A stretch of 64,000 nucleotides of DNA from Meiothermus sp. Its GTDB lineage: Bacteria; Deinococcota; Deinococci; Deinococcales; Thermaceae. The DNA is taken from positions 2,088,501 to 2,152,500 of the forward strand of contig NZ_BPIM01000001.1 in assembly GCF_026004115.1 (NCBI RefSeq). The letters are read 5' to 3'. The notes below the pieces were generated by a model, which searched no databases, was not told the DNA's origin, and saw nothing but the letters and a program-made list of their open reading frames with translations. Position numbers and translations under genes: made by a program. Every line of letters begins with the position of its first letter. Within the stretch, counting starts at the first letter, position 1. Shown in pieces: positions 12,845 to 60,895 of this stretch.

Positions 12845-12874
12845 AAACCCGTGGTTAAACGCCACGGGTTTTCG
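12845..12874 (+). terminator. tRNA terminator, probably bidirectional
   Basis: Inverted repeat AAACCCGTGG/CCACGGGTTT (12845-12854 with 12862-12871) with a 7-base loop, followed by TT. On the other strand AAACCC gives a T-run too, so it could also end the P-type ATPase transcript, whose stop codon lies inside the loop. Confidence 0.8.
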
Positions 12875-14877
12875 TATTTACCATAGCCTTGCCAAGGCTA
12901 CGACACATTTTCACTGTTGCCGTAAAAGGTTCCAAGCCCACTTTCTTCTGCACCGGGAGGGTGGGGGAGGGTATTGGGCAAGGCCTGAGCGCTGGCGGAA
13001 GCCCTAGCGAACCCGGTGGGCTCAGCAGGCGCAGCCCCACCAGCACCACAAAAACCGTGCCGCCTTCGTGGGCCACAACGCCCATCGGGAGGGGTACTTT
13101 TCCGGCCAGGGCAAAAGCGCCCACCACCACAATCACCCCCAGGGCAAAGCTCAGGTTGAAATAGACGGTGCGGGCGGTGGCGCGGGCCAGCTGTTGGGCC
13201 CCTACCAGGCGGTTCAGGTCGTTTTTCATGAGCACCAGGTCGGCGCTCTCGAGCGAGACGTCGGAACCAGCGGCCATCGAGACCCCCACCGCTGCGGCGT
13301 TCAGGGCCGGGGCATCGTTGAGACCATCGCCCACCATCACCACCGTGCCCTCCTGCTCTAGTTGCTGGATGCGCGCCAGTTTATCTTCCGGCAGCAGTTC
13401 GGCATAGACCTCGCTAATGCCGACCTGGGCTGCGATGTGGTGGGCCACAGCTTTGCGGTCGCCGGTGAGCATGACCACCCGCGCCCCTTGCTGCCTGAGC
13501 CGGGCGATGGCCTGGGCGGCTTCGGGGCGGGGGGTATCGGCCACGCCCAGCAGGGCGAGGGGGTGGTGGTTGGTGCCCAGTACGGCGGTGGTCAGCCCCC
13601 GATCCTCCAGGGCTTGCATCTGGGCTTCAACGCTGGGCGAAAGCGCAATGCCCAGGCTTTCCAGCAAGCGCCGGTTGCCCACCCAGACCTGTGAACCGTC
13701 GGCCAGAACACCCAGCACCCCGTGGCCCCGCACGGCCCGAATTTCACTTACCTCGGGGGTGGGGCCCTCCCAGCCCTGGACAATGGCCTGGGCAATGGGG
13801 TGTTCGCTGTAGCGCTCGATGCCCGCGGCCAGGGCTCTGGCCTCGGCTTCGGAGCCTTGTAGGGCACCTCACCTCCACCAGCTTCATGCGCCCCTCGGTG
13901 AGGGTGCCGGTCTTGTCGAACACAAAGATATTGGCCCGGGCCAGCGATTCCAGCGCGGCTCCGCTCTTGAACAGGGCCCCGGCCCTGGCCCCTGCTGCCA
14001 TGGCCGAAAGCACCGCTGCCGGGGTAGCGATCACCACCGCGCAGGGGCTGGCCACCACCAAAAAGGTCATGGCCCGGTACCAGGCCTGGGCGGCCTCGAG
14101 GCCAAACACAAAGTGGGCTACGGCAAATACCACCGGGGCCGAAAGCAGCACCGCAATGGTGTAGGGCCCCTCGAAGCGCTCGGCAAACCGCTCGGTGCGG
14201 CTCTTGCTGGCCTGGGCGCTTTCCACCAGTTTGATGAGCTTGGCCAGGGTGCTTTCGCTGGCAGGCCGCTCCACCCGTACCCGCACCACCCCGTGCCCAT
14301 TAAGGGTGCCGCTCTTGACGGGGTCGCCAGGCTTTTTGTCCACCGGTACACTCTCGCCGGTGAGGGCGCTTTCGTCCACATCGCTGTAGCCTTCCAACAC
14401 AGTGCCGTCGGCAGCGAAGCGCTCGCCAGGGCGCACCACCAGCAGGTCGCCGGGGCGCAAGGCTTCCAGCGGCTTCCACTGCTCACTTCCATCCGGCAGC
14501 AGCACATTGGCCCCTTCGGGGTGCAGGGTCATGAGGGCCTCGATGGCCCGCCGGGTGCGGTTCATGGCCCAGCTTTGCAGGGTGTTGGAGAGGCTGAACA
14601 AAAAAAGCAGGATGGCCCCGTCGCCGGCCTGTCCCACCGAGGCGGCCCCCAATGCGGCCACCACCATCAGCAGGTCTACATCCAGCTTGCGCTCCTGGAA
14701 CAGGCTACGCATTGCTTTGATGGCCGAGGGAACCCCCCCGGCCAGAAAAGCCAACGTCCAGAGGCTATTTTGCAGCCAGACCTGTTCGTAGGCCCCTGCC
14801 ACAAAGCCCCCCACCACCCCCAGCAGGGTCAGGCCAGAGAGCAGAAAGCCCCGCTTGACTTCATGGTGCCAGAACAA
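12855..14877 (-). pseudogene. Heavy-metal P1B-type ATPase (ZntA/CadA-like), frameshifted
   Basis: Two frames together encode one metal-exporting ATPase. The first (13744-14877) has ALTGESVPVDKK, SPCAVVIATPA and the phosphorylation motif DKTGTLTEG, then goes out of frame after KLVEVR near 13865. The other frame continues with ALQGSEAEARALAAG, the P1B-specific SEHPIAQAI, TGDRKAVAHHIA and GDGLNDAPALNAAA. The SPC motif fits Zn, Cd or Co export; no N-terminal metal-binding domain is visible. The last ~50 residues look non-native and may reflect a further indel. A good ribosome site (AAGGA) precedes an ATG at 14926, but in a different frame, so the N-terminus may also be shifted; the in-frame start at 14877 is TTG. 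Confidence 0.85.
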
Positions 14878-32579: not shown

Positions 32580-32777
32580 ATACCAGATTCGGTTAGTTCG
32601 GCGCCGGATGGCGGCGAACTAACAGGGCCGAAGTTATCCGCGTAGCGGAGGGCGATACCGCCCCTTGGAAGGGAGACGCTTTTTTCGCCGACCGATAGGG
32701 AGGGGTGTGCTCTAGGATTCAAAAAGATAGCCTCTAGGGGTCTTTGATTTGGATGATTATCTTTTTGAATCCGGTAT
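32580..32777 (+). repeat. Repeat element copy 1 (long form, 198 bp)
   Basis: Begins ATACCAGATTC and ends GAATCCGGTAT, imperfect terminal inverted repeats. Inside are a GTTAGTTCG...CGAACTAAC palindrome, one copy of the GAAGTTATCCGCGTAGCGGA module, and GGATTCAAAAAGATA with its exact reverse TATCTTTTTGAATCC 15 bases long. It carries no gene and lies between fabF and the desulfurase-like gene. Likely a non-autonomous mobile or REP-like element. Confidence 0.85.
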
Positions 32778-44040: not shown

Positions 44041-44168
44041 ATACCGGATTCAAAAAGATAATCATCCAAACTAAAGACCCCCAGAGGCTATCTTTTTGAA
44101 TCCTAGAGCACTCCCTTCGGTCGGGTTAGTTCGCCGCCGGATGGCGGCGAACTAACCGAATCTGGTAT
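44041..44168 (-). repeat. Repeat element copy 2 (short form, 128 bp)
   Basis: Lies inverted relative to copy 1: starts ATACCGGATTC and ends GAATCTGGTAT. It has the 15-base GGATTCAAAAAGATA/TATCTTTTTGAATCC pair and a perfect hairpin GGTTAGTTCGCCGCC-ggat-GGCGGCGAACTAACC. It lacks the ~80-base module of the long form. It sits inside the fabD-fabG gap and so would be transcribed within the fab operon. Confidence 0.85.
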
Positions 44169-56748: not shown

Positions 56749-57225
56749 TCAAACCTCGGCGGTCTGGGTGCTGCTTTTGGGAATAAGGCCCTTTAGTTCC
56801 AGCTCCCGCACCCACTCCCGAACCTTGTGGGCAACCTGGTCTCGCACCTTGCGAAAGACCTCGAGGCGCTCGGCATCGCCGCCCTGGGCGGCGCTGGGGT
56901 CTTCGAAGGGCCAGAATAGCCGGTAGGTGCTGAAGGGGAACAATGGACACTCCTGCTCGGCCCGGTCGCACACAACCACCAGGTAAGTGAAGCTGTACTT
57001 GCCGCCCCAGTACTCCATCAGGCTTTTGGCGTGCTGTCCTTCCATGTCCAGATCCATCTCCGAGAGCACCTGGCGGGTCAAGGGGTTGATCTCGCTGGGG
57101 TGCAGTCCGGCGCTATAGACCTCGAAGCGGTCGCCCGCGTAATGGCGCAGCAGGGCCTCGGCCATCTGGCTGCGGGCCGAGTTGTGGCTGCACAAAAACA
57201 GCACCGAGATTTTGCGTTTTCTCAT
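56749..57225 (-). CDS. Arsenate reductase/low-molecular-weight phosphatase-like protein (second copy)
   Basis: A 158-residue LMW-PTP-fold protein. FLCSHNSARSQMAEALLRHY supplies the P-loop with the nucleophilic Cys, and FWPFEDPSAAQGGDAERLEVF the Asp-Pro acid loop. Additional Cys occur at VVCDRAEQECPLF, in the place of the redox Cys of thioredoxin-type ArsC. It reduces arsenate to arsenite in such families. The gene lies 12 bases after the first arsC-like gene. A phosphatase role is the alternative. Last gene of the arsenic island. Confidence 0.8.
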   Translation of the reverse strand: MRKRKISVLFLCSHNSARSQMAEALLRHYAGDRFEVYSAGLHPSEINPLTRQVLSEMDLDMEGQHAKSLMEYWGGKYSFTYLVVVCDRAEQECPLFPFSTYRLFWPFEDPSAAQGGDAERLEVFRKVRDQVAHKVREWVRELELKGLIPKSSTQTAEV

Positions 57226-57237
57226 ACCGACCTCCCG

Positions 57238-57702
57238 CTAGCGTGCCTGGGTAAGCCCTGCGGCCTCCGCCAGGTCATGGTCGCTTGGCACCTGACCCTG
57301 CGTCAGGCTTTGAATCAGGCCCTGACTCATTCGGCCCAGGGCATCGCGTACCCTGCGCCATTCCCCCAGGCCCTTGCCGGAAGGGTCGGGGAAGGAAACA
57401 TGGAGCTTCTGGGTCTGGGCCGGGTAAGCCGGGCAGTTCTCGGCAGCCAAATCGCAAACCGTGAGCACGAGATCGAAGTTCCAGGGGTCGGGCAGGTCGT
57501 AAAGGGTCTTGGAGGTGTGGGCGCTCAGGTCTATGCCCACCTCGCCCATAACCGCGATGGCATCGGGCTTGACAAGGGTTTTCTCGGTGCCGGCCGACCA
57601 GATTTCGGCGGGAAGCTTTAGCTGCTCGGCCCAGTACCTGAGCCAACCTTCGGCCATCTGGCTGCGGGCAGAGTTGTGGGTGCAGAGTACCAGAATGCGC
57701 AT
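57238..57702 (-). CDS. arsC: Arsenate reductase (thioredoxin/LMW-PTP type)
   Basis: A 154-residue protein with LVLCTHNSARSQMAEGWLRYW (P-loop Cys), SAHTSKTLYDLP, VLTVCDLAAENCPAYP with the Cys pair of thioredoxin-linked ArsC, and VSFPDPSGKG with the Asp-Pro. It should reduce arsenate to arsenite with thioredoxin electrons. The start at 57702 (MRILVLCTH) fits the family; the frame opens nine codons earlier without support. It is followed by a second copy. Confidence 0.85.
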   Translation of the reverse strand: MRILVLCTHNSARSQMAEGWLRYWAEQLKLPAEIWSAGTEKTLVKPDAIAVMGEVGIDLSAHTSKTLYDLPDPWNFDLVLTVCDLAAENCPAYPAQTQKLHVSFPDPSGKGLGEWRRVRDALGRMSQGLIQSLTQGQVPSDHDLAEAAGLTQAR

Positions 57703-57944
57703 CGAGTTACAGTATCGGCCTTTTTTCATGGAAATGTCAGGACGTGAGAGGTGTTATTAAACCACCTCGCCTGAACACTTTGCATACCGCAGTGGCGATG
57801 GAGGTAGGGAATAGGGGGCAGGGGTTTGAAGACAGACGTAGGAACCCCCTACCCACCTCCTACCACCCACTTCCATATGTGTATCGTTAAATGTTGATTA
57901 TTCGCCTCGAGTTGCCATCGGAAACGTCTGGAACTTCCTCAGGG

Positions 57945-59180
57945 TTATGCCAGCACTGCTCTGGGCCGGGCCTGCCATATCGCCAGTGCTGAAATTGCCC
58001 CCAGTGCCGCAAAAAGCCATAACACCAGATTGTAGTTGCCGGAAAGCCCGTGCAGGGCGCCTGCCCCAAAGGGGGCGATGGTCTGGGCCACCGCCACAAT
58101 GGAGGTCATGCTACCGTTGATGGTGCCATAGTGCTTTGCACCGTAGATCTCGGCCACCAGGGCAGGTTTGGCCAGGGAGATGGAGCCGTTGGCCAGGCCA
58201 AAAAAGAGCACAAAGGCCCAAAGGCCCGCGCCCTCCGGCAATAACAGCAGGCCAAGCAGACTCAGGGCGTAGCCCCCCAGAAAAGCACCGCTGAGGTGAA
58301 AGAGCGAGATGCGCTCACTGAGAGGTGTATAGAAGATGCGGCCTGCCAACTGCACCACGCCTACCCCTCCGGCAGCCAAGGCCACCAGGGCGGGTGTGTA
58401 GCCTTTCTCGGTCAGCAGAGGCACCATGTGGGCGGTGAGGGCAATGCTGGTGGCCCTGGACAGGGCAAACCCGAGCGAAAGCCACCAGAAAGTGGGTTGG
58501 CGCAGGGCCTCTTTTGCGCTGAGGCTGTTTTCCAGGGCCGGACTCCTAGAACCCGGCGCTACAGCCTCGCCGTCTGGCACCTGCCCTATGTCTTCTGGCC
58601 GGCGGCGCAAAATCAGGGCGTGCAGGGGGATGGTGCCCAGGGCAAAGATGAGGGCCAGAATTTCCAGCGCCCCGCGCCAGCCCGCAAGCTGCACCAGCCA
58701 GGTGGAGAGGGGCACAAAGATGGTGCTGGCCAGTCCGGCCATCAGGGTGACCACGAGCATCGCCCGCGGGCGGTAGCGGCGAAACCAGACCGCCAGCACC
58801 GCAAAGGCCACTTCGTAGAGCACCATGGCCATAGCCAACCCCAGCCCCGCCCAGAGCAGGTAAAAGGTGGTCAGGTTATGCACATGGGCCCAGCCCCAGA
58901 CCAGCAAGGCGCCCCAGATAGATCCTGCGGTCATGAGGGCCCGGGCCCCGTGTCGATCGAACCAGCGCCCTACCGGAATGGCCGCCAGCCCCGAGATCAG
59001 CAAAGCTAGCGAGAAAGCCGCCGAGGTCTCGGCCCGGTTCCAGCCCAGCTCGGCTTCCATGGGCTTCACAAAAACGCCAAAGGCATAGTATAGGACGCCA
59101 AAGCCGATGGTCTGGGTGAGGGCCAGTGCCCAGGCAATGCGCCAGCCGTAATAGGCGGTAGTGGGGGAGGGGTGGGTCAT
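57945..59180 (-). CDS. MFS transporter (OFA/monocarboxylate-like), in arsenic island
   Basis: A 411-residue transporter of 12 membrane segments. GWNRAETSAAFSLALLISGL and GRWFDRHGARALM in the first half and FWWLSLGFALSRATSIAL in the second fit the oxalate/formate or monocarboxylate branch of the major facilitator superfamily. No ArsB or ACR3 is in the island, so this may be the export pump for arsenic, or an unrelated transporter. The gene is about 170 bases downstream of arsN2 and about 240 bases before arsC. Confidence 0.75.
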   Translation of the reverse strand: MTHPSPTTAYYGWRIAWALALTQTIGFGVLYYAFGVFVKPMEAELGWNRAETSAAFSLALLISGLAAIPVGRWFDRHGARALMTAGSIWGALLVWGWAHVHNLTTFYLLWAGLGLAMAMVLYEVAFAVLAVWFRRYRPRAMLVVTLMAGLASTIFVPLSTWLVQLAGWRGALEILALIFALGTIPLHALILRRRPEDIGQVPDGEAVAPGSRSPALENSLSAKEALRQPTFWWLSLGFALSRATSIALTAHMVPLLTEKGYTPALVALAAGGVGVVQLAGRIFYTPLSERISLFHLSGAFLGGYALSLLGLLLLPEGAGLWAFVLFFGLANGSISLAKPALVAEIYGAKHYGTINGSMTSIVAVAQTIAPFGAGALHGLSGNYNLVLWLFAALGAISALAIWQARPRAVLA

Positions 59181-59348
59181 AGGCTGGCTAGGAGTCAGGT
59201 GTTTGTGAGGGGGTCAATCTTCTGCGCTAGAGACCGTCGGGGCCCCAAGGTCCAGGAGGATTTCGCGGGCTGGATTGGGTGATGTGATGGTTTTCTAAAA
59301 AAAAGTTGTGTTTCTCAGGTCTCATGCGGCATGTCCGAAGGCTTGCGG

Positions 59349-59783
59349 CTACTCGAGTTTGAGCAGCATGGCGGTGGCGGTGTCCGGGCATGCACCCTGG
59401 AGTTCCTCTGAAGCACTCAGGGCTGCAGGCAGTTCTGCATGCGTGACCTGCACAAAGCCAAAGCGAGGAAAGTAATCCTGGGCTGTCTCGGTCAGGAGCG
59501 AGATAGAGGTCAGGCTTTTTTGTTGGGCCAGCTCAATCATGCCCTCGGTCAGCTTGGCCCCAATTCTGTGGGCGCGATAGCCCGGCGCGACCACCACAGA
59601 GCGCAAGAGACCGCTATCTTGATGGACTTCCAGGCCCGCGCACCCCACCACCTTTTCGCCGTCGAGGGCCAGGATGAAATTTAGAATGTGTGCTTCCAGA
59701 CCTGCTGTGGGCAGTTGGGCATCGTTTAGCAGGGCCTTTATCTCGGGCAAATCGTCGGTAGTGGCGGTGCAGTAGGTAATCAT
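59349..59783 (-). CDS. arsN2: Arsenic-linked N-acetyltransferase (ArsN2-like)
   Basis: A 144-residue GNAT protein. DDLPEIKALLNDAQLPTAGLEAHILNF, then GCAGLEVHQDSGLLRSVVVAPGYRAHRIGAKL with the acetyl-CoA loop, and LTETAQDYFPRFGFVQV, match the ArsN2 type found next to arsR in many arsenic operons. Some members acetylate organoarsenical antibiotics; this one is untested. GAGGA lies 4 bases before the ATG. Repeat element 4 lies just upstream, between it and the DUF6428-like gene. Confidence 0.75.
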   Translation of the reverse strand: MITYCTATTDDLPEIKALLNDAQLPTAGLEAHILNFILALDGEKVVGCAGLEVHQDSGLLRSVVVAPGYRAHRIGAKLTEGMIELAQQKSLTSISLLTETAQDYFPRFGFVQVTHAELPAALSASEELQGACPDTATAMLLKLE

Positions 59784-59817
59784 GATTCCTCTAGCTTATG
59801 GTTCAAAAGGGTTTGTA

Positions 59818-59944
59818 ATACCAGATTCGGTTAGTTCGTCACCCTTTGGTGACGAACTAACCCGACCGAAGGGAGTGCTCTAGGATTCAAAAAGACAGCC
59901 TATGCTGTTTTTGGTTTTGTAAACTGTCTTTTTGAATCTGGTAT
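59818..59944 (+). repeat. Repeat element copy 4 (short form, 127 bp)
   Basis: ATACCAGATTC to GAATCTGGTAT. The hairpin reads GGTTAGTTCGTCACC-cttt-GGTGACGAACTAACC; its inner stem sequence differs from copy 2 but remains fully paired. The second pair is GATTCAAAAAGACAG/CTGTCTTTTTGAATC, again changed on both sides. It lies inside the arsenic island between the DUF6428-like gene and arsN2. Confidence 0.85.
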
Positions 59945-59996
59945 AAGTATGGGCTGAACCGTTGTTCACAAGGGCGATTCATGCACCCACCCACAC

Positions 59997-60482
59997 TCAG
60001 CAGCAACGAGCAGACGGGGTTGTCATGTCCAGCTCGAGCAACGCTCCACAGCACGCATTGCTGGCCCGCTCACGGGCCTTGCAAGTTACGCCGGGCGGCA
60101 TCAGGTGCACCACCAGATGGTCGCCCTCGAGGGCAATCGAGCCCACATGGTAGTGAATGGCGGGAAGGTCAGTATTCCCGTACTCGAAGCGAACTTCTGT
60201 ATCTGGCTGTACCGGCACCAAGGCCGCGACCCGGTTATAAATGCTAAGGAACTTTTGTACTGTCATGAATTCGGGTTTGTCGTCCGGGCCTGGCCCCATA
60301 AGCTGTACCACGGTCTCGCGCCAGAAGTTGGCCTGTCCGCCGCAATCCATGCTCTCGTAGGTGACATTCATGACCTCGGTAACGTGGTAGCCGGGGGCGA
60401 TCTGCTGGCCCTGGGCATACTTGAAGACCAGCGGTTTGTCCTGGTGGGGAGCCAGGGCCTCGAGCAGTTCTTGTGTTTTCAT
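59997..60482 (-). CDS. DUF6428-like Cys-rich protein of the arsenic island
   Basis: A 161-residue protein. KTQELLEALAPHQDKPLVFKYAQG starts it; GYHVTEVMNVTYESMDCGGQANFWRETVVQL and FRFEYGNTDLPAIHYHVG-like strands follow, and the end is rich in Cys (CKARERASNACCGALLE ... ARCC). Proteins of this type are commonly annotated as DUF6428 next to arsR. The Cys cluster could bind arsenite, but this is an inference. GAGGA precedes the ATG at 60482. It follows arsR closely. Confidence 0.65.
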   Translation of the reverse strand: MKTQELLEALAPHQDKPLVFKYAQGQQIAPGYHVTEVMNVTYESMDCGGQANFWRETVVQLMGPGPDDKPEFMTVQKFLSIYNRVAALVPVQPDTEVRFEYGNTDLPAIHYHVGSIALEGDHLVVHLMPPGVTCKARERASNACCGALLELDMTTPSARCC

Positions 60483-60507
60483 ACGTTCCTCCCTGCGGTT
60501 TTTGAAA

Positions 60508-60858
60508 TTAACCACCGATAGTCGGTAAAAAGGTCTTGATCAGGGCAAAACCCCTAGGGTCAATCCGGTAATACATCCATTTGCCCCGTTTTTCGCCCTT
60601 GACCAGATGGGCCGAGACCAGGCACTTCATGTGGTGCGACACGGTGGGCTGAGAAAGCCCGGTCACGGTTTCCAGGTCGCAGGCGCACAACCCCGGTTGG
60701 GGGCCACAACAGGCGCCATCGGGGTTTTGGTTTTGGGCTAAGTGGGCCAGAATCTTGAGCCGGGCTGGGTCGGAAAGGGCTTTGAATACTAAGGCGCTGG
60801 CCTCGAGCGCACTTTCTTCCGGGTCTCTTGTGTCTGGCTGCAATACCAGTGAACTCAT
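60508..60858 (-). CDS. arsR: ArsR family arsenic-responsive repressor
   Basis: A 116-residue winged-helix regulator. VFKALSDPARLKILAHLAQ, the arsenite-sensing GLCACDLETVTGLSQPTVSHHM with Cys-x-Cys in helix 3 next to the recognition helix, and KRGKWMYYRIDP. An extra Cys pair (GACCGP) just before may add metal ligands. The start at 60858 is 6 bases after a -10 box, implying a leaderless mRNA. It would repress the downstream genes until arsenite releases it from the operator. Confidence 0.9.
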   Translation of the reverse strand: MSSLVLQPDTRDPEESALEASALVFKALSDPARLKILAHLAQNQNPDGACCGPQPGLCACDLETVTGLSQPTVSHHMKCLVSAHLVKGEKRGKWMYYRIDPRGFALIKTFLPTIGG

Positions 60859-60864
60859 ATCGCC

Positions 60865-60895
60865 ACAATACATTGATAAATCTAAATGTGTCAAT
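60865..60895 (-). promoter_or_regulatory. ars promoter with ArsR operator
   Basis: On the minus strand TTGACA (60889-60894), 18 bases and TATTGT (60865-60870). Between and over them lies an inverted repeat, ATTGATAAA...TGTGTCAAT (60872-60895), like known ArsR operators. Repressor bound here would block the polymerase. The ATG begins 6 bases after the -10 box. Confidence 0.75.

Follow-up and report, generated by a model that had tools for sequence, protein, structure and literature searches.

The ars island at positions 56749-60894 of the window (the full 64,000-nt stretch of Meiothermus DNA analysed here) is probably an ArsR-controlled arsenic-resistance operon that uses a transporter of the major facilitator superfamily (MFS) as its exporter. 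The gene order over 60894-56749, on the minus strand, is arsR, a gene for a DUF6428 protein, arsN2, the MFS gene, arsC1 and arsC2. Judged from sequence, the MFS protein very probably exports some arsenical and, with less assurance, appears to serve as the operon's main pump, acting on As(III)-class compounds. It is the strongest export candidate because no ACR3, ArsP, ArsJ or true ArsB was found in the genome, the ArsR site has no second strict copy, the protein resembles ArsK and its gene is conserved beside ars genes.

Whole-genome profile searches of the window's own Meiothermus assembly (3.35 Mb, 99.8% complete) gave no match to SBF, ACR3, ArsP or ArsJ. The ArsB model gave one 33-bit match (C1:1152291; Pfam cut-off 22.2), rejected as ArsB on a CitMHS score of 208.6 bits versus 43.8 bits for ArsB; weak ArsB-like matches of the CitMHS kind occur throughout Thermaceae, whether or not the island is present. 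The genome has one MIP protein as a possible aquaglyceroporin, and no ars gene was found by eye in its 3.6-kb stretch. The preliminary description of the window had seen no ArsB, ACR3, ArsP or ArsJ there, and this holds genome-wide. The arrangement it named as speaking against an exporting MFS protein, an ACR3 or ArsB gene elsewhere under the same ArsR, was not found, and the strict operator has no second genomic copy. Its statement that the island lacks a recognised pump stands for the classical families and fails for the MFS protein, which is recognisable as ArsK-like.

The same pattern extends to relatives. In a phylum set of 111 genomes, ACR3 was found above the cut-off in 20 and ArsB above 380 bits in four. 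Among the 22 genomes in which an MFS gene of the Deinococcota clade described below is linked to ars genes, 20 have no ACR3 match (the others being G042 and G105) and none of the 22 has a true ArsB.

Gene content and control of the ars island

The island is real and complete. Profile matches and the operator bear out the whole set that had been read from the window, namely arsR with its operator, DUF6428, ArsN2, an MFS transporter and two arsC genes together:

60872..60895, minus strand: ArsR-type operator ATTGACA-N10-TATCAAT, ATTGACACATTTAGATTTATCAAT, the sole strict match in the genome
60865..60894, minus strand: sigma-70-type promoter TTGACA-18-TATTGT, overlapped by the operator (consensus scan 10/12; a pattern match only)
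60508..60858, minus strand: arsR (NF033788, 85.4 bits, cut-off 55; HTH_5; Cys 50, 51, 58, 60, 79)
59997..60482, minus strand: DUF6428 gene (PF20001, 113.8 bits, 8.3e-33, cut-off 28.7; Cys 47, 134, 144, 145, 160, 161)
59818..59944, strand not assigned: inverted-repeat element with ATACCAGATTC ends and two inner hairpins, between DUF6428 and arsN2
59349..59783, minus strand: arsN2, GNAT N-acetyltransferase (NF040501, 146.1 bits, above the cut-off of 125)
57945..59180, minus strand: MFS transporter gene, 411 aa, no cysteine (PF07690, MFS_1, 123.4 bits, cut-off 33.4; NF033733 below cut-off)
57238..57702, minus strand: arsC1, thioredoxin-type arsenate reductase (LMWPc; NF010053, 1.5e-28, below cut-off; motifs CTHNSAR and VCDLAAENC; probable start ATG 57702)
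56749..57225, minus strand: arsC2, thioredoxin-type arsenate reductase (LMWPc; TIGR02691, 6.2e-30, below cut-off; motifs CSHNSAR and VCDRAEQEC)

The arsR product scores above the cut-off of the ArsR/SmtB model, and its Cys 58 and Cys 60 form a CxC motif, a mark of ArsR/SmtB metalloregulators. The gene probably starts at ATG 60858 rather than at TTG 60894 of the listed open reading frame (ORF), since the latter falls within the operator and promoter. Because these two elements overlap, ArsR likely represses the operon by occluding the promoter. The strict operator form (ATTGACA-N2..10-TATCAAT) was found once in the 3.35-Mb genome and not at all in a backward control, and the loose form (ATTGA-N6..14-TCAAT) twice in the window against 0.12 expected. 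When 40 loci were scanned, all 17 Deinococcota loci in which ArsR and DUF6428 are paired carried the loose form, as did 2 of the 23 others; five loci (L092, L093, L097, L100 and L105) have a site between arsR and DUF6428. Two half-site spacings differing by 8 bp were seen among the scanned loci, the shorter, ATTGA-N6-TCAAT, in relatives further removed and the longer, ATTGA-N14-TCAAT, in Meiothermus.

Both arsC products exceed the LMWPc/ArsC cut-off (64.5 and 54.2 bits; cut-off 23.2) and miss the curated ArsC cut-offs (TIGR02691, 104.1 and 88.0 vs 174.3; NF010053, 90.3 and 99.7 vs 215). In each, a CX5R loop is followed by a further two cysteines (Cys 16/92/99, counted from 57729, and 12/86/93), which is the layout of thioredoxin-type ArsC.

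Intergenic gaps of 213 bp (DUF6428/arsN2), 168 bp (arsN2/MFS) and 215-242 bp (MFS/arsC1), together with the inverted-repeat element that occupies much of the first, make it possible that the genes belong to more than one transcript. Miniature elements of this type, with ATACC[A/G]GATTC ends and inner hairpins, are frequent in the window (nine end matches against 0.49 expected), with copies at 59818-59944, inside the operon, and at 44041-44168, 32580-32777, 45395, 46502 and 61353.

DUF6428 is encoded in 27/111 genomes. Within the stretch viewed, an ArsR gene adjoins it in 22 of the 27 loci, upstream on the same strand in 21 and divergently in one. One DUF6428 set drew on 23 of these loci plus the window's sequence; L054, L055 (the window's own locus), L068 and L077 were not part of it. 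The conserved motifs are a nearly invariant DCGG, a CK and two CC pairs; by column, Cys47 is kept in 28/28 rows, Cys134 in 27/28, a CC pair in 25-26 and the terminal CC pair in 22-23. The predicted model (predicted local distance difference test score, pLDDT, 85.6) combines an ordered domain with a Cys-rich tail that is disordered, and a fold search gave no PDB match at E<=0.001 (best Z 3.2). DUF6428 is not named in the literature searched, most subscription journals lying outside that search. Its cysteines and its tie to ArsR suggest an As(III)-binding helper, which may bind As(III) and then pass it on or buffer it. ArsN2, placed in an N-acetylglutamate-synthase-like clade in the available part of a 2019 study (PMC6465285), may likewise be an accessory, N-acetylating an amino-acid-like arsenical.

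The MFS protein as an ArsK-type carrier

The best of ten NCBIfam matches of the MFS protein is ArsK (NF033733; 1.2e-51, 175.7 bits), followed by the SfMCT L-lactate model, and its nearest named relative is a protein of M. hypogaeus (96% identical). Of the 39 genomes matching strongly (E<=1e-70), 38 supplied MFS sequences, that of G078 (45%) being left out. In a maximum-likelihood tree of 76 rows, from which four MFS rows below 300 aa were excluded (G083, G091, L152 and L158), 33 Deinococcota rows, including the window's protein, form one clade (support 100/100), and 22 of the 33 are ars-linked.

The MFS gene is the constant part of a varying locus. It is present in 14/18 genomes of the genus Meiothermus, and in all 14 loci it stands beside arsC and/or arsR/DUF6428/arsN2, despite much gene loss around it. 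Two loci (G035 and G036) retain arsN2-MFS-arsC-arsC and have lost arsR, DUF6428 and the operator together; another (G032) is without DUF6428 and the operator; three (G038, G034 and G028) keep arsR-DUF6428-arsN2-MFS with no adjacent arsC; and one (G030) has no arsN2. Outside the genus, the set is reduced to ArsR-DUF6428-MFS in G096, G073, G024 and G059, with no arsN2 nearby (a search restricted to the loci themselves). Since the MFS gene stays constant while its neighbours vary, its product probably does not need an adjacent ArsN2 in order to function.

The predicted structure (pLDDT 87.2) is closest, among solved structures, to lactate and oxalate carriers, the nearest being the SLC16-type L-lactate transporter SfMCT (6g9x; template-modelling score 0.80-0.85), at 22-24% identity. 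In SfMCT, according to the available part of its description, Arg280 and Tyr119 bind lactate and a proton site is defined (PMC6573034). Arg281 and Tyr122 of the MFS protein align with this pair, and its His251, Glu258 and Tyr383 with the proton site (His250/Tyr383 of SfMCT being kept, the Tyr383 match as read by eye from the alignments), whereas Gln, Ala and Ser/Thr stand in place of the lactate-pocket residues Asn276, Leu145 and Phe335. A set of nine pocket residues, among them Tyr122, Gln277 and Arg281, is complete in the window's protein, in all four named ArsK and in 59/70 ArsK-type rows; Tyr122, Thr/Ser145, Gly274 and Arg281 are kept in 70/70, and none of six outgroup MFS proteins has more than two of the nine. 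The window's protein is cysteine-free, as are, in all, 14 of the 22 ars-linked MFS proteins, so the carrier can do without internal thiol coordination.

A mechanism consistent with these features would run as follows. Arsenite or another trivalent arsenical would lift ArsR off its operator, and the ArsC pair would reduce arsenate with thioredoxin. The MFS protein, acting like ArsK and built like the SLC16/MCT monocarboxylate carriers, would then export the trivalent arsenical through a pocket that may use Arg281, Tyr122 and Gln277. Transport would proceed without a transporter cysteine and would probably be proton-linked, as the match of His251, Glu258 and Tyr383 to the SfMCT proton site suggests.

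Several observations weigh against the MFS protein as main arsenite pump. Its 175.7 bits miss the curated ArsK cut-off of 400 bits, and the four named ArsK group apart from it, in a clade that they share with relatives from Burkholderia and other proteobacteria. A plain ArsK identity was rejected on these two grounds, and by its sequence the protein is ArsK-type and not a member of ArsK as curated. Within the Deinococcota clade, 11/33 rows have no ars gene of the query set within 4.5 kb. The pocket set was picked after the alignment had been viewed, and MFS proteins without ars neighbours carry it too, so that it characterises a broader family and is not specific to arsenic. The pocket arginine favours an anionic substrate, yet As(OH)3 carries no charge near pH 7. 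Across the 111 genomes, avoidance of ACR3 by the MFS gene falls short of significance (Fisher p 0.35, uncorrected for kinship) and was dropped as statistical support. Lastly, the genome holds a second candidate pump, an ArsR/SmtB-linked ATPase, which is the main rival.

ArsK-type MFS genes also occur in other settings. In Chloroflexota, Cyanobacteria, Rhodococcus and others (L134-L137, L140, L151, L160, L161 and L121) they adjoin one conserved FAD/NAD(P) oxidoreductase, perhaps forming another arsenical or metal module; the oxidoreductase beside many of the Chloroflexota relatives matches YpdA and ArsO only weakly. In two loci of Trueperaceae type (L092, 9314-10396; L112, 5120-6205), the MFS gene has a luciferase-like (LLM) monooxygenase gene as its neighbour.

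Alternatives for the export step

Five P-type ATPase matches were found in the genome, and one of them, a ZntA-like CPC P-type ATPase of 756 aa, lies beside a second ArsR/SmtB gene (123 aa; G000:C1:3076400-3079258). This enzyme, like TtArsX in T. thermophilus HB27, might be the real arsenite pump and leave the MFS protein a side role, which is considered unlikely. Its identity to Thermus ATPases is 48-50%, and one of these (L187) adjoins smtB and a pdxS-like gene and is a putative orthologue of TTC0354 of HB27. The latter adjoins TtsmtB, and its inactivation, in the available part of the source, lowers As(III) tolerance from 40 to 3 mM (PMC5658604). However, the best curated models of the Meiothermus ATPase are zinc/cadmium/lead exporters, the strict operator of the island is absent in front of its gene, and it may have been acquired recently, because a neighbouring gene reads as a transposase. 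Moreover, a TtArsX-like ATPase match of set grade (at least 47% identity, E<=1e-138, thresholds set after the lists were viewed) was present in 13 of the 22 genomes with an ars-linked MFS gene and missing from nine. Seven of the 22 (G096, G031, G027, G041, G038, G036 and G035) are without ACR3, ArsB and the TtArsX-like ATPase, a count that covers these three pumps; other P-type ATPases are present in the seven, and the record of G041 is fragmentary. The window itself holds a heavy-metal P-type ATPase gene without a CPC motif (approximately 12858-14877), which is split into ORFs of 292 and 377 aa and is a single ORF of approximately 644-787 aa in relatives.

The substrate of the MFS protein might instead be an organic arsenical, such as an amino-acid-like compound that is methylated or N-acetylated, the operon guarding against arsenic antibiotics and not arsenite. 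ArsN2 adjoins the MFS gene in most Meiothermus loci, an arsN1 relative acetylates arsinothricin according to the part of the study available (PMC6465285), and an MCT-like pocket with Arg281 suits carboxylates. This reading is unlikely, as the two arsC genes point to inorganic arsenate and ArsR-DUF6428-MFS occurs with no ArsN2 nearby in the four loci outside the genus. These loci also weaken acetylation-dependent export. The suggestion in the preliminary description that the MFS protein is the export step is upheld in that the protein is the best export candidate; of the two substrates offered there, the acetylated one is unnecessary and the thiol-bound one may apply.

Export of trivalent arsenicals by the MFS protein, the reading preferred here, can be given a more specific form, which is distinctly doubtful. 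The cysteine-free MCT-like protein would be the only arsenite extrusion system of Meiothermus, As(III) would be carried as an anionic adduct (e.g. with a low-molecular-weight thiol) held by Arg281, Tyr122 and Gln277, and DUF6428 would be the As(III)-binding partner that loads the MFS protein or ArsR. It is very unlikely that the MFS protein is an ordinary carrier of monocarboxylates or other metabolites, in the operon by chance, with arsenite removed poorly or by leakage: the nearest solved structures and the relatives without ars neighbours would fit this, but the lactate-pocket residues are replaced, ArsK, the best model, has the same pocket, and all 14 Meiothermus loci remain ars-linked despite gene loss around the gene.

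Comparison with known arsenic systems

The MFS protein ArsK of Shi et al. (2018) reportedly confers efflux of arsenite, antimonite, Rox(III) and MAs(III). The Meiothermus protein resembles it in its best curated model, its MFS/MCT-like family, the nine pocket residues and its position beside arsR and arsC, and one rhizobial arsK cluster (L176) likewise carries DUF6428. It differs in lacking the cysteine at position 97 that all four named ArsK possess, in having no arsH found beside it, in its separate Deinococcota clade and in its score below 400 bits. Plasmid-borne ars operons of Burkholderia (L119 and L180; ACR3, MFS, ArsH, ArsN2) also combine ArsR, ArsC and ArsN2 with an ArsK-like MFS protein, although ACR3 is present there and none was found in the Meiothermus genome.

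The TtSmtB/TtArsX/TtArsC system of Thermus thermophilus belongs to the same family, Thermaceae, and likewise comprises ArsR-family control and an arsenate reductase, but, as far as the available parts of its descriptions go, which name no ArsB or ACR3 for it either, its pump is a P-type ATPase and its genes are scattered, whereas Meiothermus has one cluster with an MFS gene (PMC5658604, PMC8649762). Nadar et al. (2019) list an arsN operon of Meiothermus (now Calidithermus) chliarophilus, which has an island of the same kind (L130: ArsR, DUF6428, MFS, ArsN2 and ArsC); the work in the available part of that paper was done on arsN1 of another organism and says nothing of the pump (PMC6465285). 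No study of the Meiothermus MFS pump was found in the literature searched for Meiothermus with arsenic and for ArsK, most subscription journals lying outside the search.

In the available part of a 2015 survey of approximately 2,500 strains, 35 MFS proteins were found in ars operons, all of them co-encoded with ArsB or ACR3 (PMC4435449), and MFS proteins have accordingly been regarded as helpers. In contrast, a whole clade keeps an ArsK-type MFS protein in its ars operons here, with ACR3 not found in 20/22 genomes. To the known systems the present analysis adds the MFS clade, the genome-wide lack of the classical pumps, the single operator, the shared pocket and a set of natural test strains. 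Of the latter, G031, G038, G035, G036, G027, G041 and G096 are natural strains for asking whether an ArsK-type MFS protein is able to act as the only pump; the pocket residues named above are candidates for testing.

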